A stretch of 64,000 bases of DNA from NCBI GenBank assembly GCA_036504735.1, contig DASXUQ010000019.1, positions 124,001 to 188,000 of the forward strand, read 5' to 3'. Under the pieces are notes generated by a model. The model worked only from the letters and a program-made list of their open reading frames with translations. It ran no database searches and was not told the DNA's origin. Shown here piece after piece: positions 236 to 42,904 of this stretch; position 1 is the stretch's first letter, and each line of letters opens with the position of its first letter. The stretch is from a bacterium. Lineage in GTDB: Bacteria > Electryoneota > RPQS01. Position numbers and translations under genes: made by a program.

Positions 236-1066
236 TTACCTCTTCTGAGGCGGGTCGGGATACGTGTCCGGGACATCGAAGTGATACGCCCCCGTGAGCT
301 TGCTGCCATCCACTTCGGACGTATACGTCACCATGTATTCATACTGCCCGGGCGGCAGTGTGCGTGGCAGCACCGTTTTCAGAAGCCGCTCGGAGTGCGG
401 CAATACCGACAGGCGGTCCGTATCTCCGCTGTTGACCACGGCTCCACTTGCGTCGCGCACTTCGTACTTACCCTTCTGCGCAATCCGCCCCGTTCCACTG
501 TTCTCCACCTTTGCGACGACCATGACGCCGCTGGGCGTCACAACGCTTCGCATGGAGTCCGGATCAAGGCTCCACTGATACGTTGGCCGGCCCTTATCCG
601 CCATGATCGGCACAACCACAATGGCAATCGCTTTGATCCTGCTCTGAGCATCCAGCGAGTCTTGATGGGAGGGCAGCGGCAGAAACTCCAATCCGCCCCA
701 GTAGGTTCCGTCGGGAACCGTATCCGGCGCCATGATCGCATAGCGCACCTGCCGCTCGGAGTTGGGCTCCAGCGTAAATTCGCGGGGGGTGATCTTCATC
801 CACGGGGCCAGCGACGTCGAGTCCATCGGCACCAGCGAAAGATCCCCTGCCACGGTCAATTTGAAGTGCACCGGAAAGACGCGCAAGCGCACGGAGCGGG
901 CATCGGTGCTGCTGATCGTAAAGGATCCCGAGGCGCGGCCATTTTCGAACTTCGCTTCGATAACGGCGGGCGACACACGCAGTACGGCAAACAGCGGCGT
1001 GGCCGCAAGGCAGAACAGTACCGCGAACAGGGCGCGGCGCGGAAACATCCATCGGCTGAACGGCAC
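236..1066 (-). CDS. PapD-like periplasmic chaperone-type protein
   Basis: 276 residues. The start chosen is GTG at 1066-1064, because a strong Shine-Dalgarno (GGAGGA, 1079-1074) sits 7 nt upstream; the ATG at 1048 is too far from it. The N-terminus (RRALFAVLFCLAATPLFA) is a signal peptide. The mature protein starts LRVSPAVIEAKFENGRASG, followed by SFTISSTDARSVRLRVFP, an N-terminal Ig-like strand pattern of PapD-type chaperones and related Ig domains. LEPNSERQVRYAIMAP is the typical strand that precedes the binding edge. A second beta-rich half ends with PPGQYEYMVTYTSEVDG. It lies directly downstream of a pilin-like gene and 1 nt upstream of another exported protein, which supports a surface-fibre assembly role in the periplasm. 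Family assignment rests on strand patterns only, so it is moderate. Confidence 0.6.
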   Translation of the reverse strand: MPFSRWMFPRRALFAVLFCLAATPLFAVLRVSPAVIEAKFENGRASGSFTISSTDARSVRLRVFPVHFKLTVAGDLSLVPMDSTSLAPWMKITPREFTLEPNSERQVRYAIMAPDTVPDGTYWGGLEFLPLPSHQDSLDAQSRIKAIAIVVVPIMADKGRPTYQWSLDPDSMRSVVTPSGVMVVAKVENSGTGRIAQKGKYEVRDASGAVVNSGDTDRLSVLPHSERLLKTVLPRTLPPGQYEYMVTYTSEVDGSKLTGAYHFDVPDTYPDPPQKR

Positions 1067-1193
1067 GAAAAATTCCTCCAAGTATGGGACAGCCGGGAGG
1101 TGCAAACCTCTCCGGCTGACATAAAACCCTCACATTGTATCTCTATGCACCCTGGTCGGCACGGACAACTCAGCATGAGAGATTACAACCGGG

Positions 1194-1227
1194 GTGCGGG
1201 CCGCTGCCCGTGAACAGCGGCCCGCAC
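1194..1227 (-). terminator. Strong stem-loop just after the pilin-like gene
   Basis: A perfect 13-bp stem (1194-1206 with 1215-1227, GTGCGGGCCGCTG on the plus strand) encloses an 8-nt loop. It begins only 7 nt past the pilin-like stop codon on the minus strand. No T-tract follows, so it is more likely a partial terminator or an mRNA 3'-end stabiliser. Either would raise subunit mRNA over that of the downstream chaperone. Confidence 0.6.
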
Positions 1228-1233
1228 GTGGGA

Positions 1234-1794
1234 TTAAAACACGTGAACGGACGCGTACAGGCAGACAAAGCCCGAGTATTCGCCTGTGGGCATTTCGGGG
1301 TTCGCCTGGTTCCACGCGACGGTCACAAACACATCCTGCGAGAAGATGCCCATCTGGCTGGACTCGAAGGGGATGTAGTTCGTCTGCATTCCGAGGAAGC
1401 CGTCATAGTTGAACGGCGTCTCGTAGATACCGACATTGCTGCCGCCCTGAAGCGGGGAGGCATCCGTCGGCTCAATCAACGCGCCTGTGGTCAGCCACAG
1501 GGGGATCGGGGTTACGGTCGGGTCCGTGGGATCATCGCCCTTGTAAAGGGCCGTTGCCGCCGCGCTGAGGTTGACGGCTTCCGAATTCGCATCGACGCGG
1601 AAAGTAATTTCGCCCGGGAAGATACCAGTCTGGATCGAGCCCAGGTTGACATTGGCCGTCACCACCGACACTGCGATGTTGGAGACGACTGCGACATACA
1701 CATGACCCCAAGCTGCACTGGTGGTGTCCGCAAAGGCGGAACCCGTGATCAGCATCAGGCCAACGGCGATAAAGGTTACGAAGCGAGCCAGCAT
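1234..1794 (-). CDS. Small exported pilin-like structural subunit
   Basis: 186 residues starting at ATG 1794 behind a clear AAGGAGG site. A signal peptide (LARFVTFIAVGLMLITGSAFA) leads to a mature protein of about 165 residues rich in V, T, S, A and N. It has a short repeated hydrophobic pattern (VYVAVVSNIAVSVVTANVN) and few charged residues, as in fibre-forming beta-sandwich subunits. It sits between a larger exported protein and a PapD-like chaperone and is followed by a strong stem-loop, the usual arrangement for an abundant major subunit. I see no cysteine pair and no type IV pilin prepilin motif, so a chaperone-dependent or alternative fibre is more likely than a type IV pilus. The structural role is inferred from context. 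Confidence 0.6.
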   Translation of the reverse strand: MLARFVTFIAVGLMLITGSAFADTTSAAWGHVYVAVVSNIAVSVVTANVNLGSIQTGIFPGEITFRVDANSEAVNLSAAATALYKGDDPTDPTVTPIPLWLTTGALIEPTDASPLQGGSNVGIYETPFNYDGFLGMQTNYIPFESSQMGIFSQDVFVTVAWNQANPEMPTGEYSGFVCLYASVHVF

Positions 1795-1953
1795 GAGAAT
1801 GCCTCCTTAAATTATCACTTCTTCAATTTTTCGATCGGATGTCCGTGCCGACCGGTGTGCATACAAACACGCCTTGCTTGAATTATCGAATGGTTACTAA
1901 TCGCGGTTACTAAAGCCAGCGCCCCGCCGCATCGCCGTCCTCACCTGAAGAAC

Positions 1954-2892
1954 CTACTTTGACGCGGGGTTATCCGCATGAAGGCGGAATTTGATGTCCT
2001 GCAAATAGTTTCCGGCAACCGTGACCCGGTCGGTCGCCACGCGAAGCTGGAAGGGAATCTCCACCTCCGCCAGCGTGAATGCCGGTGGCGCACTGCCATG
2101 GGCGGCAACCACCGCTCCCGAACGGAAAGGAACATAATCCGGCGCCATACTCTGCCAATCCTGCCCCGGCTCTACGCGCCATGTGAGCCGGTCGCGTTCG
2201 AGGCGAAAGCCGCCCCGCGTATACAAGTCCCCCCCCCATATCATTTCGAGTGCCCAGGCGCAGTTACTTCGCACGCGCAGGTACATCGGTTCGCTTTCCG
2301 CGGGCTCCCCCGGATGCTCCACCGGCACAACCCAGTCGCTGCTGATCAGTTCGATCTCCACCCGCGGCTGAACAGTGAACTCCGTCACCAGCAGAATTCC
2401 CGATCCCATCGACGTGCTGTCGCGCGCTTGCAGCTCCACCCGCACCGTAAAACAGTAGATTCCGGGAGGATCCGCTTCATCCAGATATTCGGCAATCCGC
2501 GACTGCGCAACCTGCCAGTCATAGCTGATAACCTGCTCGTCACTTTCCCCCGGACCGTAATCAAGACGGACAGGAATATAGCCGCAGAGCTGGGACAAAT
2601 CCGGGAAAAGTTGCTGCACCCGTTCGAGGGGCAATTCCAAATTATCCGAGAGCCGCCGCGGCGGCTGCACCAGCGTCACGTATAAGGACCAAGGATTCGC
2701 ACTGCTGATCCGTACCGTTGTCGTCCCCGGATTCAACTGGTTGCTTCCCGGGTTTTGCGCGGAAAAACTCCCCAGTGAAACCAGGCGCGGTTCGATAGTC
2801 AAGCTCCCCTGAGCCCAGCCTAATCCCGTCACGCAGAGCACGGTCAAACCGGTTGCAAGTCCGGGGAAGAAACGTGATAACCCGTTTCGAAT
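1954..2892 (-). CDS. Exported protein of the fimbria-like operon, possible minor subunit; start uncertain
   Basis: The body is clear: a signal-peptide end (TGLTVLCVTGLGWAQG) followed by GSLTIEPRLVSLGSFSAQNP and a beta-rich protein of about 285 residues with Ig-like strands (TTTVRISSANPWSLYVTLVQ) and a WALEMIWGG segment. The first conventional start codon in frame is a TTG at 2847, which would leave only a 14-residue signal peptide. The frame is open back to a TGA at 2898-2896; an ATT at 2892 would give a full signal peptide and lies just after a G-rich GGGGGTGA tract. A one-base frameshift joining to the ATG at 2914 is the alternative. It is the promoter-proximal gene of the operon, so an adhesin or minor subunit role is plausible but unproven. 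Confidence 0.55.
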   Translation of the reverse strand: MRNGLSRFFPGLATGLTVLCVTGLGWAQGSLTIEPRLVSLGSFSAQNPGSNQLNPGTTTVRISSANPWSLYVTLVQPPRRLSDNLELPLERVQQLFPDLSQLCGYIPVRLDYGPGESDEQVISYDWQVAQSRIAEYLDEADPPGIYCFTVRVELQARDSTSMGSGILLVTEFTVQPRVEIELISSDWVVPVEHPGEPAESEPMYLRVRSNCAWALEMIWGGDLYTRGGFRLERDRLTWRVEPGQDWQSMAPDYVPFRSGAVVAAHGSAPPAFTLAEVEIPFQLRVATDRVTVAGNYLQDIKFRLHADNPASK

Positions 2893-7033: not shown

Positions 7034-10000
7034 CTATTGCACCGGCTGTCCTTGCGGGCGCATGCGCCGCTCCGGTTGCCTGCGCCGCGACAGGCTCTCC
7101 GCCACGTACACGGCGGTCTTCTCCGCGGCCTTGCGCCACGTGAACCGCTGGGCCTGAGCCTTGCCTCGTTGGGACAGATCCTCGCGCAGCGCTGGATTCT
7201 GCACAATGCTCAGCATCGCCCGCGCGATCTCTTCACTGTTCTCCGCCGCGATCATCAGAGCCGCATCGCCGCAGATCTCCACCTGTGCCGAATTGTTTCC
7301 GGCGATGACCGGCAGTCCTGACTGCATCGCATCCAGCAGACTCCGCGCCGACCCTTCCCACAAACTGGGATTCAGCAAGGCCTGAGCCTCACCACGCAAC
7401 GCGGCAGCATCACTCCTCGTTGTGAATGCGAGCGCCTGAGATGGCAGCGCACAATCCTGAGCCGCCGCGAGAATGGCCTTTCGGCCCATGTCGGTGATTT
7501 CTCCGGCTATGACCAGCCGCACGTCTTCGTTCGTCACGTGCCGTGCCGCAGACAGGGCGAACAACGATCCTGCCAGATTCTCTCTATAGGCCGCGTTGCC
7601 GATCGACAGAAAGAACTTCTTTCCGCCGAGCCCCAGCCGCTGCATCACCTGCTCCGAACGACTCCGCTCCGGCTGTTGCCGGTTGACCGGCGCGCCGTGC
7701 ACAATCCGCAGTCTGCCGTGGGGAATCTCCAGATAAGCTTGAAGATCCTGCGCCGTGCTCTGCGACGGACAGAGGAACAGATCGCACCGCTCCTTCAGCA
7801 GCCTGAGCAGGTGCAGGTAATGTCCCTTGTAATCCGGCGCACTCTTCAGATAGGCATCCGCAAACCGCAGAGGAACCAGATCCTCGAAAGCGGCCGCAAC
7901 CAGTGGCGAAGTGACCAGCAACGAGCCCAGCATTTTGTCCGCCTGCGCATCCATCGGGTCGCACAGGTACATGCAATCCAGATCCCGTGACGCCCACTGC
8001 TGGGCAGGAAGATAGCCGCCGCGCGCATGCTGTGCCAGTTGCGCAACGGCGGGCGACAGCGGCGACGCGCCGTTACCAAACACCGTGAAATTCCAGTGGA
8101 GCCGGGCCGCCATCCACTCATTCACCACATGCCACGCATACAATTGCCCGTCGGTCATGGCATGGTCTGCCGTATCGAGGGCGCTGGCATCAATGCCGAC
8201 ATTCAGCGATTCACGCAGGGTCAGGCGATGGGCCGCAAGCTCGACGGCGCGCGCGCGAATCACGGCGCGCGGGGCCGGCTCATCGGTGCGGATATCCAGC
8301 AGATAGAAATCATTTTCCGGCGAGGTATCCAGCTCATAGCTGGTACAACCCGCTTCCGCCAGCAGCCGGTCCACAGTCTCGCGGTTCACCAGCCAGCGGT
8401 GCTCCACGTTGTGCACCAGCGCCGGATCGTAATTTGGCTTGTCCGCATTCGGGACCGTGACCAGCACGCGCCTGCCCACCCGCGCGCACTCGCGCAGGGC
8501 GCACACCGCATCTTCGAACTCCACGTGCTCCAGAATCTCCGGCGCCAGCACCGTATCGAACTCGTGCCTGGCAAACGGCAGCCCCTTCACCACGTCGCCG
8601 TACTGAAAGTGCACCGATGGCCGCAGCGCCTGTGCCACCGCCAGCCGTCCGCGATTAATGTCCACCGCCGCACTGCCGCCCACAGACTCGCTCACATAGC
8701 CATTGGCCGGACCGATCTCCAGAATCCGCCCTTGTGCTCTGCTCTTCAGCCATTGGACACGCTCCCGCTGCAGCGGTTCGTTGTAGATGTCATCCGGATG
8801 CGAGCGGTAGTAATGCATCATGTTCACGTCGCTCTGCGGTGGCGCGTTCAAAACGGCCCGATAGACGTCGAGAACCCTGCGGCCAACCCTATCCCAGCGC
8901 GCAGTCGCTTCAAATTCGCGGACGTTGCGCAGGAGCGTACGCGCGATAAACGGATTCGTGAGCGTCTCGTGGATCGCCAGCGTCAGATGATGCAGATCCG
9001 TCGTCTTATATGTCAGAGCGGGCGCGAAATCGAAGGTGGGAACGGAGGAGCTGACCACAGGCCGGCCACTGGCCAGCGCAATCATGGCTGCTCCCGAACT
9101 CTCGAAACGCCGCGCGCGATAATTCATGACAATCACGTCCGACGCCCGCAGCCGCCGCGCAATCTCCTCATCGCTCAGATAGGTTCCCGCAAAATGCACC
9201 GCCGCCGTCAGTCCCAGGTCGGCGGCTTTCTGCTTGCAGGCATTCAAATAGTCTTGCGAGTCCGGATTGGCTGGATGGGGTCCTCCCAGCACATGCAGGT
9301 CCGCGCCCAACGTTGCATGCACCGGTTTCATCGCCTCAATCAGTTCGAGCACTCCCTTGTGCGGCTCCACAAAGCCAAAGGTGCTGACCACCTTCTTTGC
9401 CGGATCCCATTGCAGATCCAGTTTGCTTTCGAACAGATCCCGGCTTTCCACCGCGGGCATGCCATGCGGAATCACATCCATCCGTCCCGGTGTGCCGCCC
9501 GTCGCAATCAGTTCCAATTCGTTCTGGGCATGGTGTACCAGCGCGCGATCGGCCAGCCGCACTAACTCCCCCATGGCATCGACGGTGCATTCGGTGGAAT
9601 GGAACGTCACGACGACGCGCACTCCCATCGCCCGCACGGCCCGTAACACGCTGGGCAGCCAGCCATCCAGCGCAAACATTCCGCCGTGGTTCACGTGCAG
9701 CAGCGTGATTCCCAGCCTGTGAATCTGCGCCACCAGTTCATCGCCGCCATTCGCCTCGCGCGTCCAGCAACGGACAACATGGCTTGCATCCGCGCCGCGC
9801 AGCGGCACGTTCTTCTCGGAAAGAATCACCGGCTCTGTGCCCTGCGCCTGCATCGCTGCCACAAGGAATTCGGCATATGTCGCCAGGCCGCAATGCTGAT
9901 TGTAGGTCGTCAACAGCGCCACGCGCAGGGATTCGGCAGGTACGCTTTTCACAGGTTGATCTCCGTCTGTAACAGGCTTCGGACAGGACACACTCTCGGC

Positions 10001-13000
10001 TTCCTTCGCCGGGCTTTCGGATGGAGGCGGCTCCCTCAGAAAGCCGTCCTCCCGCAGATACTTTTCGTCATCCCGCACCAGCTTGCCGCCCCATCGCTTC
10101 AGAAACAGACGGTAGTTGCCGCCGCTTTTGTCGTGCCCCTTCACCGTGCGCGATTCATAGTGGTAAATGCGGCTTGCGGGGCAATAGAACACTTTTCTCC
10201 CCGCCTCCCGCACCTTCATGCACAGATCAATGTCCTCGCAGGAATTCAGATAGGCCTCGTCGAAACCACCGAGTTGCTCGAACAGGCCTTTCTCAATCAG
10301 CATGCAGCTTCCCGCCACAAACTGGAATTCACGCGGCGTGTTCACCGCCGGATGATCAGAAGGCAATTCGTTGTTGTAGATGCTGCGTACCATGTTGTCC
10401 GCGCCGCAAATGATCCCCGCCTGCTGCACCATGCCGCTTTCGGGGAAGATCTGCAAATTGCCCACCAGCCCAATGGACGGATCCTTCTTCTGGCAGTCGA
10501 GCATCGCCGAAAGCCAGTGCGGCAGCACCGTCGTGTCATTATTCAGGAACACCAGGTGTTTGCCGCGCGCCGCCTTTGCCCCCGCGTTGCAGCCCTTGGC
10601 GAACCCGAGATTTTCCCCGCAGGATACCGTGCGCACAATCGACGGCAGCTCCGCCAAATACTGAGCGGTATCATCTGTTGAGCCGTTGTCCACCACCACC
10701 ACTTCAAACGGCACAGCCTCCTTCACCGTGAACAGTGACGTAATACACTGCCGCGTGTAATTCAGGTTGTTGAACACCGGAATGATCACCGACACTTCAG
10801 GCACAGGCTCGATCCGTTTCGGTGCCTGCGCAAGCGGCGCATCCTTCAGAGTTCCGGTAAAGATAAACTGCTGTGCGGTGAGTTCATTCAGATCCGCCGG
10901 TGATACGGCGCGCAGCAGCAGCGGCCCGACGCGCACGTCCGTGGCAGCCTCCGGCAGAGTTTGCATTTCCTGCTCAAAGAGCGGATCGCGCACAATCTCC
11001 ACAACCTTGGCCTCAATTCCCGCCTGCTCGAACAGCGCCTGCATGTCTTTCAGCGCAAAGAACCGTAGATGGGTCTTGTCCAGAATTCCCCACTCTTCAT
11101 AGCTCCACGACCCTTCCAGCACCTTCTTCATCACGCCAAGATTGCGGATGTTCGGGATGCTGGCCACGATGCTGCCGGAAGGCTTCAGATACTGCGTCAG
11201 CTTCTTGAGGGCGAGCCACGGATTGACCAGATGCTCCAGCACATCGCCGAGCAGCAGACAGTCAAAGGATGCCTTCTCCAGCGGCAACTCCATCGTCTCG
11301 AGGTCACCGACCACTACCGACGACAGATGCTGCCTTGCCACCGCCGCCGCCGCCTCGTGAATCTCGATCCCCACCACCTCGATCCCGCGTTCCGCCCGCA
11401 GCAGCCCGCCCGTCATGCCATGCCCGCACCCCACATCGAGCACCCGCTTCGCGGTTACTGGAACCAGGTCGCACAGATTCTTCCGCGCGTTGGCATAGTA
11501 GTAGTCCGGCTTGAACTCCTGCTTGGTTGCCGCATTCTGCAGCGTTCTGGCCACGGTGCTATTATCGCTTTTCGACTTTTCGCTTTTCGCTTTTCCCCAC
11601 GGCCTCTCGTGCCATTCCGCAAGAACCTGATGCGGCTGGTCAAGCAGATGGTCATAGTCCCCACGGGCAAATTCCTTTGGGTCGCGCGTGCGGTAATAGT
11701 CGTAGCGCCGCGCCCGGACTTCCGGATACATATACCCAAGGTGAATGATCTTTACGTCAATGTCGGTCTCCCGGCCGCGAATCCCCGCCGGCAGCCGCGT
11801 GCAGTGTCCGTTCTCGCGGAACGTGGTCGGCTCATAGTGCAGCGCGTAGACGTCCTGCCCCTTCAGACGGAACATCCGCGCCTGGAGGAGCTGGTTGTAA
11901 ACGCCATCCGTGCGATAGTGTTCCAGATCATTCCACATAAACAGGCTCTCGATCTTGAACACTCCCACATCCGGCGGGCAGGTGCGCACGGCGTCGAAGA
12001 TCCGCTGCGCCGCACTCTCCTCCAGCATCTCGTCGCCGTCGAGGTTCAATATCCAGTCCGGCTGCTGCCCGATGGCCATCTGCAGCGCCAGCATCTTGTC
12101 ACGGCGCTGATCCCGTGTCGCCTCGTCCAGTCGCCTGTAGTCCACCACCGCTGGGTGCGCCGCGCAGATTTCCGGCGTATGGTCGCTCGAGCCGTCATCC
12201 AGCACGACAATGCCGTCTGCCACGCGGGCAACGCTGTCAAATACTTCCTTGATCCAGCGCTCCTCATTGCGGATGCGCATCGTGCAGATAATTCGCGGGT
12301 GCCGCGTCGCCGTCCGGTTGCGGCATACCGCCTTGAGCTGCTTGCGTTCCGGCTGCAGCACAACGTCCACCTCTTCGAAGAAGTCTCCGAGCAAACTTTC
12401 CAGCGTCTCGGCATGGAAGAACCGCAAATGCATCACGTCATAGTATGCCAGCCCGTCCGGCACTTGCACCAGCAGGGCTCCGCCCGGTTTGAGGACCCGC
12501 GCCAGATCTTTCAGAATTGGGGTGGGATGAGCGATATGCTCCAGCACATGATTGCAGAACACGGAATCGAACGACTGATCTTCGAACGGCAGCCGGTTTC
12601 CGGCGCCCAGCACAAAACGCAGACGGTTCTGCACCGCCTGCGGCTCTTTTGCCAGATGATCTTTCGCAGTGTCCAGCGCTATCTGCGAAATGTCGTAGCC
12701 GACCACCTCGCGCCCGTGGCGCGCCATCAGAATATCGATCTCACCCGTGCCGCATCCGAAGTCCAGAATGCGCCCTTGCAACTCGGTGGACTCGCAGGCT
12801 TCCTTGGTGCAGAAGTGATTCTCCCAGAAGGCCAGCGTCAGAGCTTCCGGCTGTACCTTCATCCGGCGGCGGAACGCTTCATCGTTCAGTTGACGCGTCT
12901 GCTGAAAATCGCGCATCCCCTTCGTAATCGTCGTCTTGGCGCTGACCTTGATGTTTTCAAAGCAGAGCACGGTGTTCTTGAACCACGGCAGCGTGCTGGT

Positions 13001-13504
13001 GCTGCGCAGATACAGAGCGGTGTCCTTGTCGAACCGCCAGACTCCGTCACGCTCAATCCGCCGAATAATCTCCTCTAGCGGTCGCTCATTGTAATGTCCC
13101 AGTCCGCCCTGCCCCGGTATCGCCCAGCTCACAATCAGGTAATCGGTCGCCGTCTTCAGCAGGTTGGTGATATAGACTTCCTGGAACTCCGCCGGAATAT
13201 GTTCTCCGACTTCGAGGCTGACGACGCAGGACCGCGTGCCGATGTCAATCGGCTTGGACAGATCCAGCACACCGCACAGCCCCTCGGTAATCTGCGGTGT
13301 GTTGGGGTTGCCGTCATAGCCTGAGCAATCGAGGCCGCCGTCTTTCAGGTGTTGCACATAGTAGCCCGCGCCGCAGCCCAGATCCACCACAGTCTTGAAG
13401 TTCCGCTTGCGGCAGAAATCCACGATGGATGCGGCCAGTGTCTGGTCGTAGACCCGGTGACGGTCCGCACCTTGCCATATTCCGGTCTTGGGATCAATAT
13501 TCAT
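7034..13504 (-). CDS. Giant multidomain methyltransferase-glycosyltransferase (2156 aa)
   Basis: A single uninterrupted frame. In order: methyltransferase 1 (VVDLGCGAG near residue 40); methyltransferase 2 (ILDFGCGTGEID near 244); GT-A glycosyltransferase (IICTMRIRNEERW near 401, with VVLDDGSSDHT and LNLDGDEM); methyltransferase 3 (VLDVGCGHG near 686); second GT2 domain (VSVIIPVFNN near 903, VVDNGSTDDT, FLNNDTTV); GT-B/GT4 domain (VALLTTYNQHCGLATYAEF near 1190, FGFVEPHKGV); methyltransferase 4 (ILEIGPANGYV near 1580); second GT-B/GT4 domain (LNVGIDASALD near 1763, LNPSLWEGSA). No membrane segment or signal peptide is visible, so it is probably cytoplasmic, building and O-methylating a nucleotide-sugar-derived glycan. 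Single-domain homologues are common; a fusion of eight enzymatic domains is not. The paralogue at 21502-23034 matches residues about 200-620. Confidence 0.85.
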   Translation of the reverse strand: MNIDPKTGIWQGADRHRVYDQTLAASIVDFCRKRNFKTVVDLGCGAGYYVQHLKDGGLDCSGYDGNPNTPQITEGLCGVLDLSKPIDIGTRSCVVSLEVGEHIPAEFQEVYITNLLKTATDYLIVSWAIPGQGGLGHYNERPLEEIIRRIERDGVWRFDKDTALYLRSTSTLPWFKNTVLCFENIKVSAKTTITKGMRDFQQTRQLNDEAFRRRMKVQPEALTLAFWENHFCTKEACESTELQGRILDFGCGTGEIDILMARHGREVVGYDISQIALDTAKDHLAKEPQAVQNRLRFVLGAGNRLPFEDQSFDSVFCNHVLEHIAHPTPILKDLARVLKPGGALLVQVPDGLAYYDVMHLRFFHAETLESLLGDFFEEVDVVLQPERKQLKAVCRNRTATRHPRIICTMRIRNEERWIKEVFDSVARVADGIVVLDDGSSDHTPEICAAHPAVVDYRRLDEATRDQRRDKMLALQMAIGQQPDWILNLDGDEMLEESAAQRIFDAVRTCPPDVGVFKIESLFMWNDLEHYRTDGVYNQLLQARMFRLKGQDVYALHYEPTTFRENGHCTRLPAGIRGRETDIDVKIIHLGYMYPEVRARRYDYYRTRDPKEFARGDYDHLLDQPHQVLAEWHERPWGKAKSEKSKSDNSTVARTLQNAATKQEFKPDYYYANARKNLCDLVPVTAKRVLDVGCGHGMTGGLLRAERGIEVVGIEIHEAAAAVARQHLSSVVVGDLETMELPLEKASFDCLLLGDVLEHLVNPWLALKKLTQYLKPSGSIVASIPNIRNLGVMKKVLEGSWSYEEWGILDKTHLRFFALKDMQALFEQAGIEAKVVEIVRDPLFEQEMQTLPEAATDVRVGPLLLRAVSPADLNELTAQQFIFTGTLKDAPLAQAPKRIEPVPEVSVIIPVFNNLNYTRQCITSLFTVKEAVPFEVVVVDNGSTDDTAQYLAELPSIVRTVSCGENLGFAKGCNAGAKAARGKHLVFLNNDTTVLPHWLSAMLDCQKKDPSIGLVGNLQIFPESGMVQQAGIICGADNMVRSIYNNELPSDHPAVNTPREFQFVAGSCMLIEKGLFEQLGGFDEAYLNSCEDIDLCMKVREAGRKVFYCPASRIYHYESRTVKGHDKSGGNYRLFLKRWGGKLVRDDEKYLREDGFLREPPPSESPAKEAESVSCPKPVTDGDQPVKSVPAESLRVALLTTYNQHCGLATYAEFLVAAMQAQGTEPVILSEKNVPLRGADASHVVRCWTREANGGDELVAQIHRLGITLLHVNHGGMFALDGWLPSVLRAVRAMGVRVVVTFHSTECTVDAMGELVRLADRALVHHAQNELELIATGGTPGRMDVIPHGMPAVESRDLFESKLDLQWDPAKKVVSTFGFVEPHKGVLELIEAMKPVHATLGADLHVLGGPHPANPDSQDYLNACKQKAADLGLTAAVHFAGTYLSDEEIARRLRASDVIVMNYRARRFESSGAAMIALASGRPVVSSSVPTFDFAPALTYKTTDLHHLTLAIHETLTNPFIARTLLRNVREFEATARWDRVGRRVLDVYRAVLNAPPQSDVNMMHYYRSHPDDIYNEPLQRERVQWLKSRAQGRILEIGPANGYVSESVGGSAAVDINRGRLAVAQALRPSVHFQYGDVVKGLPFARHEFDTVLAPEILEHVEFEDAVCALRECARVGRRVLVTVPNADKPNYDPALVHNVEHRWLVNRETVDRLLAEAGCTSYELDTSPENDFYLLDIRTDEPAPRAVIRARAVELAAHRLTLRESLNVGIDASALDTADHAMTDGQLYAWHVVNEWMAARLHWNFTVFGNGASPLSPAVAQLAQHARGGYLPAQQWASRDLDCMYLCDPMDAQADKMLGSLLVTSPLVAAAFEDLVPLRFADAYLKSAPDYKGHYLHLLRLLKERCDLFLCPSQSTAQDLQAYLEIPHGRLRIVHGAPVNRQQPERSRSEQVMQRLGLGGKKFFLSIGNAAYRENLAGSLFALSAARHVTNEDVRLVIAGEITDMGRKAILAAAQDCALPSQALAFTTRSDAAALRGEAQALLNPSLWEGSARSLLDAMQSGLPVIAGNNSAQVEICGDAALMIAAENSEEIARAMLSIVQNPALREDLSQRGKAQAQRFTWRKAAEKTAVYVAESLSRRRQPERRMRPQGQPVQ

Positions 13505-21501: not shown

Positions 21502-23034
21502 CTACCCGCAGAGGGCGAGGAACATCCTGTCCTGATCGGGGGTGAGACGCGAGGATTGGGCGGGCGGCGTCGCCGGCGCAGCACGGCGTGATCGGTCCCG
21601 CCACTCCTCGATGATCATGCAGGGCTGGTCCAGCAGATGATCATAATAGCCCTGTGCGGCGTGGCGCGGATCCTGTTTGCAGTACCAGGCATGTTTGCGG
21701 GCACGATCCTCGCGATCCATGTAACCGAGATGCTTGATGCGGACGTCCGCCTCCACGGCGCGGCCACGAAGGTTGGGGGGCACGCTCTCGCAATGAAGAT
21801 TTCCGCCATAACCCGACGGTGCGAATGACAGGGAATCGGCATTCTGTCCGGCCACGGAGAACAGCCGATGGTGGACGATACGACGGTAGATGCCGTCTGC
21901 GCGATAGTGCTGCAGATCATTCCACATGTAGAGGAAGCCGACGTCCAGCGTGGATACGCCGGGCGGACAGGAGCGGATCGCGGCGAAGATCCGCTGCGCA
22001 GCGCCATCCTCCAGAATTTCGTCGCCGTCCATGCAGAGGACCCAATCCGGATGATGACTGAGCGCCATTTTCAACAGGAGATTCTTGTCGCGGACTTCGT
22101 CGAGTTGGGGATTCCTTCCGTAACGATATTCGATGACCGCCGGATGAGCGCGACAGATGGCGGGAGTGCTGTCCGAGGAGCCGTCATCGTAGATCACGAT
22201 TCCATCGGCCACGAGCGCGATCTGATCCAGCACGTCCTTCAGCCAGCGCTCTTCATTCTTGATGCGCATCTGGCAAATGATGCGGGGATAACGCCTGGCC
22301 TCCGGATTAGAGCAGCGCACGCTCAGTTGCCGGTTTCCGTCAAGAATGCTAAGTTGCAGGTCATCGAAATAGTTTGCCAGCAGCGAGGTCAGGCTGTCCT
22401 CGGAGAAATGGTGAACGTGCGTCGGATCGTCGAAGGCATGACCCAGAGGAGTCATCGCCAGCAGGGTACCGCCCGGCTTCAGCACCCGCGCGATCTCTTT
22501 TAAGAGTGGCGTGGGGTGAGCAATATGTTCCAGCACATGAGAGAGCAGCACCGAATCGAATTCCCTGTCGGCAAACGGCAGAGGACCGGGGGTGCCAAGG
22601 ACGGTGCGCATCGCCCGCTGCAGGGCAGGCGATTCGTGGCGCAGATGCTCTTCGGCAATGCGCAGTCCGGCCGGAGAGAGATCGTAGGCGGTCACATCGA
22701 AACCGGAGCGGGCCAGATGAATGTCGATCTCTCCCGTACCGCAGCCGACATCCAGCACTCGCCGCCCCAGCATCCCCGGGCATCGCGCTTCGAGTGTGCA
22801 GGGATGGCGGGTCCAAAAATCGAGTGTCAGCGCCTCGGGATGCTGTAGGGCGCGCGTGCGGAACACGGTATCATACACATCGGCGACGCTGCAGCCGTCG
22901 TGCGGCGACCAAAGGTCGCGCCGGAAATCCGTGATGAATTGCGGCGCAGATTCCTGCCGGTTTTCAAATGTAAAAGCCATGTGGCCCTGCCATGTGAGAT
23001 TTCTGGTAGTGATCCGGTCCTGAACCGTCCGCAC
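21502..23034 (-). CDS. Methyltransferase-glycosyltransferase fusion, paralogue of the giant protein's module
   Basis: 510 residues from the first in-frame start; the ATG at 22980 (MAFTFENRQESAPQF) is equally possible. The N-terminal class I methyltransferase has VLDVGCGTGEIDIHLARSG, FDSVLLSHVLEHIAHPTPLL and VLKPGGTLLAMTPLGHAF. The C-terminal GT-A/GT2-like domain has RIICQMRIKNEERWLKDVL, VIYDDGSSDSTPAICRAHPA and WVLCMDGDEIL (DxD-like). The same order and many identical blocks occur in residues about 200-620 of the 2156-aa protein. Like that protein it ends in a conserved DHLLDQP...EEW motif. Probably cytoplasmic, acting on a surface glycan precursor. Confidence 0.85.
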   Translation of the reverse strand: MRTVQDRITTRNLTWQGHMAFTFENRQESAPQFITDFRRDLWSPHDGCSVADVYDTVFRTRALQHPEALTLDFWTRHPCTLEARCPGMLGRRVLDVGCGTGEIDIHLARSGFDVTAYDLSPAGLRIAEEHLRHESPALQRAMRTVLGTPGPLPFADREFDSVLLSHVLEHIAHPTPLLKEIARVLKPGGTLLAMTPLGHAFDDPTHVHHFSEDSLTSLLANYFDDLQLSILDGNRQLSVRCSNPEARRYPRIICQMRIKNEERWLKDVLDQIALVADGIVIYDDGSSDSTPAICRAHPAVIEYRYGRNPQLDEVRDKNLLLKMALSHHPDWVLCMDGDEILEDGAAQRIFAAIRSCPPGVSTLDVGFLYMWNDLQHYRADGIYRRIVHHRLFSVAGQNADSLSFAPSGYGGNLHCESVPPNLRGRAVEADVRIKHLGYMDREDRARKHAWYCKQDPRHAAQGYYDHLLDQPCMIIEEWRDRSRRAAPATPPAQSSRLTPDQDRMFLALCG

Positions 23035-40466: not shown

Positions 40467-40627
40467 GCATTATCTTGCGCGTTTATGTTCTCTGCTCGTA
40501 TCCTGCCTTCCGCACAAGTCCACATCTTGAAGCGAACGTCGGATGTTCGCAACCACCCCGGCATTTTTTGTTTCTGATAATTCAGTAATTGCACTTCACC
40601 CGTGCATCCAATCCCTGGAGTCCATCC

Positions 40628-42904
40628 ATGAACATTTTCGAAGAATCCTGCGAGTACCATCGCCGAGGGCGGCCTGGCAAGATCGAGATCGCGCTGACGA
40701 AACCGTGCCAGACTCAGCATGACCTCTCTTTGGCTTACAGCCCCGGCGTCGCCGGTCCATGCCTGGAGATCGAAAAAGATCCCTCGCTGGCGAATGTCTA
40801 TACCATGAAGGGCAACCTCGTGGCCGTGGTCTCCAACGGCACTGCCGTGCTGGGCCTCGGCGACATCGGCGCACTGGCGGGCAAGCCGGTGATGGAAGGC
40901 AAAGGCGTGCTCTTCAAGAGATTCGCCGACGTCGATGTGTTCGATATCGAAGTCAATTCGCATAACCCCGACGAGATCATCAAATTCTGCCAGCTTCTCG
41001 AACCTACGGTCGGCGGCATCAACCTCGAAGATATCAAGGCCCCCGAGTGCTTCTACATTGAAGAGACGCTGAAGGCCACGATGAATATTCCCGTGTTCCA
41101 CGATGACCAGCACGGCACAGCAATTATCTCCGGCGCGGCGCTGATCAATGCGATGGAACTGGTCGGCAAGGACATCAAGAAGATCCGCGTGGTTTTTTCC
41201 GGCGCGGGAGCATCGGGCATTGCCTGCGCCAAGATGTGGGAGACGCTGGGTGTGCAGCGCGAGAACTTCCTGATGATCGACACCAAGGGTGTGCTCTGGG
41301 AAGGACGCGAAGACCTTGACCCCAAGCATCCCAAGTACAACAAGTACAAGGCGCATTTCGCGCAGAAAACCAATCTGCGTACCCTCGAACAGGCGATGAA
41401 GGAAGCGGATGTGTTCTGCGGCGTGTCGGTCAAGGATCAGGTGACCAAGGACATGGTGCGCTCGATGGCCAAGGATCCGATTGTGTTCGCCATGGCCAAC
41501 CCCGATCCGGAAATCACCTACCCCGATGCCAAGGATGCGCGCGGCGATGTGATTATGGCTACGGGCCGCAGCGACTATCCGAATCAGGTGAACAACGTGC
41601 TGGGCTTCCCGTTCATTTTCCGCGGCGCATTGGACGTGCAGGCCAGCCAGATCAACGAGACCATGAAGATGGCGGCGGCGCAGTCCCTCGCGCGGCTGGC
41701 CAAGGAAGACGTGCCGGACTATGTGTGCGCGGCCTACAAGATGGACCGCATCCAGTTCGGGCGGGAGTATCTGATTCCGAAACCGGTGGATCACCGCGTC
41801 CTGCTGTGGGAAGCCGTCGCCGTGGCTAAAGCCGCCTGCGAGACCGGTGTTGCCCGCAAGCCGATTACGGACTTTAACGCCTACCGCGATTCGCTCGAAG
41901 CGCGTCTCGGACAGGGCCGCGAAGTCACCCGTTTCTTCATCAACAGCGCCAAGCGCGCGCCAAAGCGTATCGTCTTCTCCGAGGGCGAGAACCAGAAGAT
42001 TATGCGCGCGGCGGAGATGATCGTCGCCGAGGGCATCGGCACGCCGATCCTCATCGGGCACAAAGATTCCATCGTCAAGCGCAAGGAACAGCTCGGCCTG
42101 TCGCTGCAGGGCTGCGAGATCTTCGATCCGGAGCAGATGACGGAAGACGATGTGGCCGCATGGGCGGATGAAGTCTTCCAGCACCGCCAGCGCCACGGCA
42201 TCACCCGCCACGAGGCGCGCAAACTGCTGCGCCATTACAACTATGTGGCGGCCATGATGGTCCGGCAGGGCAAGGCCGACGCCTTTGTCGCCGGCGTCAA
42301 CCAGCACTATCCGGATACGATCCGCCCCGCGCTGCAACTGCTGCCCAAGAAGCCCGGCGTGAAGAATGTCTCGGCCATGTTCGCGCTGATTTTCAAAGAC
42401 AAGACCGTCTTCCTCGCGGACACGGCGGTGAATGTGGATCCGATCTCAGCCGAAGGCCTGGCGGAGATTGCCATTCTCTCGGCGGACACGGTGAAGAACC
42501 GTTTCCACACCGAGCCCCGCGTGGCGATGCTCAGCTTCTCCAATTTCGGCAGTGTGAATCATCCCGAAGCCAAGAAGGTTGCTGAAGCGGTGGAGATCGT
42601 CCACAGCCTGCGGCCGGATATTGTGATCGACGGCGAAATGCAGGCGGATACCGCTGTGATGGAACCGTTCATCGCCAACACCTATCCCTTCTCCCGTCTG
42701 AAGGGCGGCGCGGCCAACACGCTCATCTTCCCCGACATGACCAGCGGCAACATTGCCTACAAACTGCTGGCGCGTCTGGGCAAAGCCGAGATGATCGGCC
42801 CGATCCTGATGGGCATGGACAAGAGCGTCCACGTCCTCCAGCGCGATTGCGACGTGCAGGACATCGTGCAGATGGCGGCCTTTGCGGCGGTGGACGCGAA
42901 GTAA
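40628..42904 (+). CDS. maeB: MaeB-type malic enzyme with phosphotransacetylase-like domain
   Basis: 758 residues, the standard length of the two-domain form. Residues 1-420 are the malic enzyme: [18 protein letters not shown] (catalytic Tyr region), [40 protein letters not shown] (metal site) and [17 protein letters not shown] (NAD(P) Rossmann loop). Residues about 430-758 are the PTA-like domain ([39 protein letters not shown]), which usually binds acetyl-CoA as an inhibitor rather than acting as an enzyme. It decarboxylates malate to pyruvate in the cytoplasm. The start at 40628 is preferred because the upstream frame lacks conserved residues. With pckA it gives two ways from C4 acids to C3 acids. 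Confidence 0.95.

Follow-up and report, generated by a model that had tools for sequence, protein, structure and literature searches.

The window (the whole stretch of 64,000 nucleotides analysed here) contains a giant methyltransferase/glycosyltransferase (MT/GT) gene at 7034-13504 on the minus strand. The gene is an open frame of 2156 codons that runs without a break from 13504 down to 7034. The original prediction had given its position, length and uninterrupted course correctly and had left the strand unsaid; stops interrupt a plus-strand reading of the same interval. The start of the protein is supported by a 693-aa protein of a related genome (G001), which aligns from residue 1, and the end by the C-termini of relatives, which align as well. 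GC3 is uniform along the gene (0.72-0.77). Hydropathy windows of 19 residues over the whole protein revealed no membrane span, and because no segment exceeds the maximum mean of 1.51 the protein is probably soluble. A single-sequence structure prediction for residues 1180-2156 reached a pLDDT of 36.6 and was set aside as evidence.

A gene for a 215-aa Methyltransf_24 protein (PF13578; 13612-14259, minus strand) lies 107 bp upstream of the giant gene on the same strand and is possibly co-transcribed with it. No surface-polysaccharide cluster was recognised around the gene. Elsewhere in the window, 236-2847 (minus strand) encodes three adjacent small exported-looking proteins of 289, 186 and 297 aa; the two that were scanned have no Pfam match, and the 289-aa protein resembles a periplasmic pilus chaperone by eye. 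The 771-aa protein encoded at 40589-42904 joins, by Pfam, a malic enzyme to a phosphate acetyl/butyryl transferase domain.

The protein was scanned against Pfam with each segment taken alone, and all eight domains of the proposed order MT-MT-GT(A)-MT-GT2-GT4-MT-GT4 were matched in that order (all coordinates on the minus strand). MT1 (residues 1-200, 12905-13504) is a class I SAM methyltransferase with the motif DLGCGAGY; its score of 27.2 bits to PF13489, against a cut-off of 27.0, is the weakest of the eight, and it is 60% identical to its counterpart in the 693-aa protein of G001. MT2 (residues 232-392, 12329-12811) carries DFGCGTGE and matches PF08241 with 94 bits. GT(A) (residues 400-645, 11570-12307) carries LDGDE and matches PF00535 with 43.4 bits and also PF13704. 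A linker (residues 646-664, 11513-11569) separates this front part, module A, from the remainder, module B. MT3 (residues 665-880, 10865-11512) has the motif DVGCGHG, matches PF08241 with 63.4 bits and is related to PDB 3cc8, which was deposited merely as a putative methyltransferase. GT2 (residues 900-1165, 10010-10807) carries LNNDT and scores 96 bits against PF00535. GT4a (residues 1192-1555, 8840-9931) is of GT-B type (PF13692, 48.3 bits). MT4 (residues 1580-1745, 8270-8767) carries EIGPANG (PF08241, 38 bits), and GT4b (residues 1768-2140, 7085-8203) matches PF00534 with 68.2 bits. At least one methyltransferase and at least two glycosyltransferase catalytic domains, the combination taken here as the mark of a multi-domain GT/MT enzyme, are present in one chain.

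Relatives were searched in 39 genomes of the phylum and in a wider set of 386 genomes. In these searches colinear giants were confined to the window's own family, f1, where seven other genomes have versions with 44-61% identity that contain fewer domains or are cut by contig ends; the complete set of eight domains turned up in the window genome only. The giants of G005, G007 and G010 comprise 1932-1937 aa and seven domains each, and that of G006 comprises 1755 aa and six domains, without MT1 and MT2. G001 contains a 1522-aa five-domain gene and the separate 693-aa MT1-MT2-GT(A) gene. The giant of G003 is truncated where its contig stops. In G009 the contig stops at residue 565 of the giant, and the missing upstream part opens another contig. 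Because the genes that flank the giant in the window recur at these two contig ends, rlmD at one and an M29 peptidase gene with mtgA at the other, G009 likely carries a seven-domain gene across the contig gap, as inferred by joining the contigs. A contig scan yielded one true relative (L050), whose protein is identical to that of G005 contig C88, and one Opitutaceae GT2 hit.

The f1 giants have as neighbours either rlmD and M29/mtgA or genes for T9SS-type and other proteins, and the genes directly beside them differ between genomes. The order rlmD, giant, M29, mtgA is common to the window, G006 and (across the contig gap) G009, where an FkbM-type methyltransferase gene stands between the giant and M29. 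A false join or other assembly artefact, which would have undone the original prediction, is ruled out by the colinear relatives in seven f1 genomes, which include other genera and long contigs, two of them at the same locus. A chance origin of the domain chain can likewise be regarded as excluded, because the colinear domains are conserved in other genera.

The chain consists of module A (MT1-MT2-GT(A)) and module B (MT3-GT2-GT4a-MT4-GT4b). Module B makes up the conserved core; module A is the variable part and may be missing, encoded separately or exchanged. In G001 the break between the two genes matches the GT(A)-MT3 linker precisely, and the genes lie about 30 kb apart. The window itself contains a free-standing paralogue of module A, 8 kb from the giant (MT2 and GT(A), 510 aa; 21502-23034, minus strand), which is 49% identical to residues 168-637. 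A change in tree history coincides with the linker. The tree of MT3-GT2-GT4a-MT4 unites the window with G006 and G009 (100/99). The MT2-GT(A) tree joins the window to G006 and G001 and leaves G009 outside this group; under midpoint rooting G009 branches even beyond the window paralogue. Forcing window, G006 and G009 together for module A was rejected by the AU test (p = 3.4e-6), as was forcing window, G006 and G001 together for module B (p = 1.2e-4), both p-values being somewhat optimistic since the groups were named after inspection of identities and trees. Contig C82 of G009 alone has a GT(A) end of the G005 type and, from MT3 onward, sequence of the window type, so the conflict does not depend on the joining of contigs. 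The front module has therefore been exchanged, the trees on either side of the linker being in significant conflict, and the module B core is vertically conserved.

The architecture had been described as unusual and perhaps uncharacterised. The single chain is real and its eight-domain form is found in one genome; the class as such is known from other phyla and from the literature. Long mixed chains of MT, GT2, GT9 and TPR units occur in other phyla and reach 2379 residues, and another of 1991 aa, open at one end, has an MT/GT2/GT9/TPR mix. The longest (G111, L117:519-7658) has the order MT, GT2, TPR, MT, GT2, GT9, TPR and is longer than the giant. A literature search under general terms on fused glycosyltransferases returned nothing relevant. 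Among characterised proteins, A064R of virus PBCV-1 is a GT-GT-MT enzyme whose domains act in sequence on one glycan, as shown in vitro, and a review counts it among the few described with three transferase domains (PMC9614988). It shares with the giant the combination of GT and MT domains in a single chain and differs in being viral, in its size of 638 aa with three domains, and in its GT families. Single-chain MT/GT enzymes whose products are methylated rhamnose glycans are thus already described, namely WsaE, A064R and the GT2 protein of C. difficile type B. The giant is an extended, module-swapping version of a known MT/GT enzyme type.

From its domain content the protein is very probably a builder of methylated glycans. 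We infer catalysis, the order of steps, the identity of the sugars and the acceptor as follows. Up to four glycosyltransferase sites would add sugars one after another, and up to four SAM-dependent methyltransferase sites would O-methylate the added sugars. The fusion would hold the steps together and set their ratio, and the product would be a short methylated oligosaccharide. Flagellin, carrying a methylated O-glycan, would be the most likely acceptor and would be reached in trans.

The link to flagella comes from MT3. Twenty-two MT3 homologues outside f1 were examined, nine in long chains (G179, G402, G406, G330, G356, G079, G314, G188 and G212) and 13 in shorter copies. Genes fliC, fliD, fliS, fliW or maf lie within about 10 kb of six of the nine long-chain homologues versus none of the 13 short ones (one-sided Fisher 0.0011), a count based on few genomes, several of them related, and on a small reference set of flagellar genes. 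The loci adjoin fliC/fliD/fliS in G179, G402 and G356, fliD/fliS in G079, fliW in G314 and maf in G188; FliW was spotted by eye and later confirmed by Pfam, and BLAST matches alone give 5/9. The proteins of G179, G402, G356 and G079 resemble the giant in having an MT3-type domain (35-45% identity) together with GT domains; unlike it they have fewer domains or TPR repeats and adjoin fliC/fliD/fliS. The association is suggestive and falls short of proof. In enterobacteria, flagellin glycosylation islands include GT41 proteins that carry MT domains (PMC4875605). The closest characterised analogue, compared by domain content, is the flagellin GT2 protein of Clostridioides difficile type B (CDR20291_0242), which adds two rhamnoses and to which rhamnose methylation has been ascribed (PMC5207246). 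It combines an MT (PF08241) with a GT2 (PF00535), like the MT3-GT2 core pair; it differs in having few domains and in being encoded near fliC.

Proximity to flagellin or flagellar genes is seen for long MT3 relatives elsewhere and not at the window or f1 loci; no flagellar genes were found near the giant in any f1 genome examined, the window included. The genome to which the window belongs has a flagellin and Maf-type glycosylation island of its own on contig C10 (G000:C10:178000-214900; L060, L171), separate from the giant. The island encodes FlgI, FlgK, FlgL, a Maf-like protein, a DUF3880-GT, a GT9, two flagellins and FliD, as well as two multi-GT proteins (1288-aa GT4-GT4-GT2-TPR and 974-aa GT9-GT2-GT4). 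An asparagine-synthase-like gene is located between its two flagellins. Other f1 genomes have the same island, and families f3-f5 of the phylum have similar ones. Counting against a flagellar role, the search found no giant in the f1 genomes G002, G004 and G008, which have flagellar islands and fragmented assemblies. The GT2 of the giant is homologous to the island GT2; an origin from the f1 flagellar GT2 is not supported, the giants not being nested in that clade in the GT2 domain tree.

Rhamnose is suggested as donor sugar by G406, in which an MT-MT3-GT2 relative adjoins four genes resembling rmlA, rmlC, rmlD and rmlB, with Pfam matches confirming those like rmlA and rmlD. The full G406 protein (L100:2930-6445, beside the rmlABCD-like set) is a GT4-MT-MT3-GT2 chain of 1171 aa. 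An rmlD homologue (317.7 bits) is present in the window's own genome.

A flagellin glycan is the best guess because long-chain MT3 domains usually adjoin flagellar or maf genes, and the action on flagellin would be in trans because the giant lies away from the flagellar island. Flagellin as acceptor is a tentative assignment, judged slightly less probable than its negation. The full account, a soluble, cytosolic, modular builder of methylated oligosaccharides that serves flagellin in trans, is the best available explanation and is itself held with a little under even confidence.

The same kind of enzyme might instead build or cap a methylated lipopolysaccharide, O-antigen or S-layer-type polysaccharide, which is rather unlikely and is the strongest alternative. 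The precedents are WsaE of Geobacillus stearothermophilus, an S-layer glycan enzyme that makes, methylates and ends a rhamnan (PMC2943079), and ORF6 of Klebsiella O7, an MT with two GT2 modules in one large protein (PMC11231755). Like the giant, WsaE is soluble and joins MT and GT domains in a single chain; it differs in having three domains, one MT and two GTs, and in being encoded inside an S-layer glycan cluster that includes an ABC exporter. ORF6 differs in its methyltransferase-kinase part and polymerase-terminator role and has a coiled-coil ruler (PMC11231755); such a ruler, together with an ABC exporter, marks polymerase-terminator enzymes such as ORF6 and WbdD. A UDP-glucose/GDP-mannose dehydrogenase gene comes after the giant in G003, and the short MT3 homologues, several with GT-like neighbours, have no flagellar genes nearby. 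However, the scanned neighbours of the window gene included no recognisable ABC exporter, polymerase or other glycan cluster, and the long-chain MT3 proteins favour flagellar loci.

The number of reactions depends on the state of the active sites. Each domain had been credited with its core motif, which does not hold for MT4, GT2, GT4a and GT4b; canonical motifs are thus not present throughout, and the five domains other than GT4b, GT4a and MT4 have recognisable ones. MT4 has EIGPANG instead of GxGxG, and EIGPA[NT]G is found in 8/8 proteins having this domain. GT2 has LNNDT in place of DxD, and the EX7E glutamates are missing from the GT4a of every member. MT2 has lost motif I in G005, G007 and G010 (GNGxx for GCGTG). 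In the GT4b of the window copy DGQLY stands for GIGRY, REN for RKN/RRN, FEDL for FYDL and WEGSARSLLD for YEGFGFPIAE, whereas G006, G009, G001 and G003 all keep GIGRY or GVGRY, FYDL and YEGFG...E. It is 41% identical to its G006 counterpart, and the remaining shared domains reach 59-72%. This GT4b looks degenerate and may be inactive. GT4b is the least conserved domain, or tied least, in every pair of relatives compared, and its low conservation could reflect diversification rather than decay.

These losses, with that of MT2 motif I, are what a partly decayed fusion would show, in which the window copy is drifting, GT4b is already inactive and the chain no longer runs eight reactions. Such decay is improbable for a frame open over 2156 codons with its remaining domains well conserved and with a GT4b that retains the first glutamate of EX7E and still scores 68 bits as a GT4. 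The motif losses are compatible with a multi-domain GT/MT enzyme, since no fewer than one MT and two GTs are still intact. Glycosylation of exported proteins other than flagellin, such as those bearing T9SS-type C-terminal sorting signals, is equally doubtful: in G005, G007 and G010 the giant is bordered by relatives of the T9SS-type sorted protein of the window, and a PNGase F-like gene adjoins it in G007, but T9SS-type proteins are so frequent in the lineage that proximity means little, and the immediate neighbours vary among genomes.

Should the methylated-glycan builder prove active, it would rank among the longest enzymes that assemble glycans in a single chain and alternate transferases with methyltransferases, the characterised single-chain cases having about three transferase domains. 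The front module (MT-MT-GT) may have been swapped by recombination at the fixed linker, with the MT-GT-GT-MT core inherited vertically, so as to vary some of the sugars and methyl groups of a surface glycan among relatives; this wider proposal is possible though not probable, and is likened to modular polyketide enzymes, whose products are varied by modules. Exchange of the front module at a defined linker offers a testable case of glycan change by the swapping of gene parts, and the module boundaries are natural cut points for building hybrid glycan enzymes.
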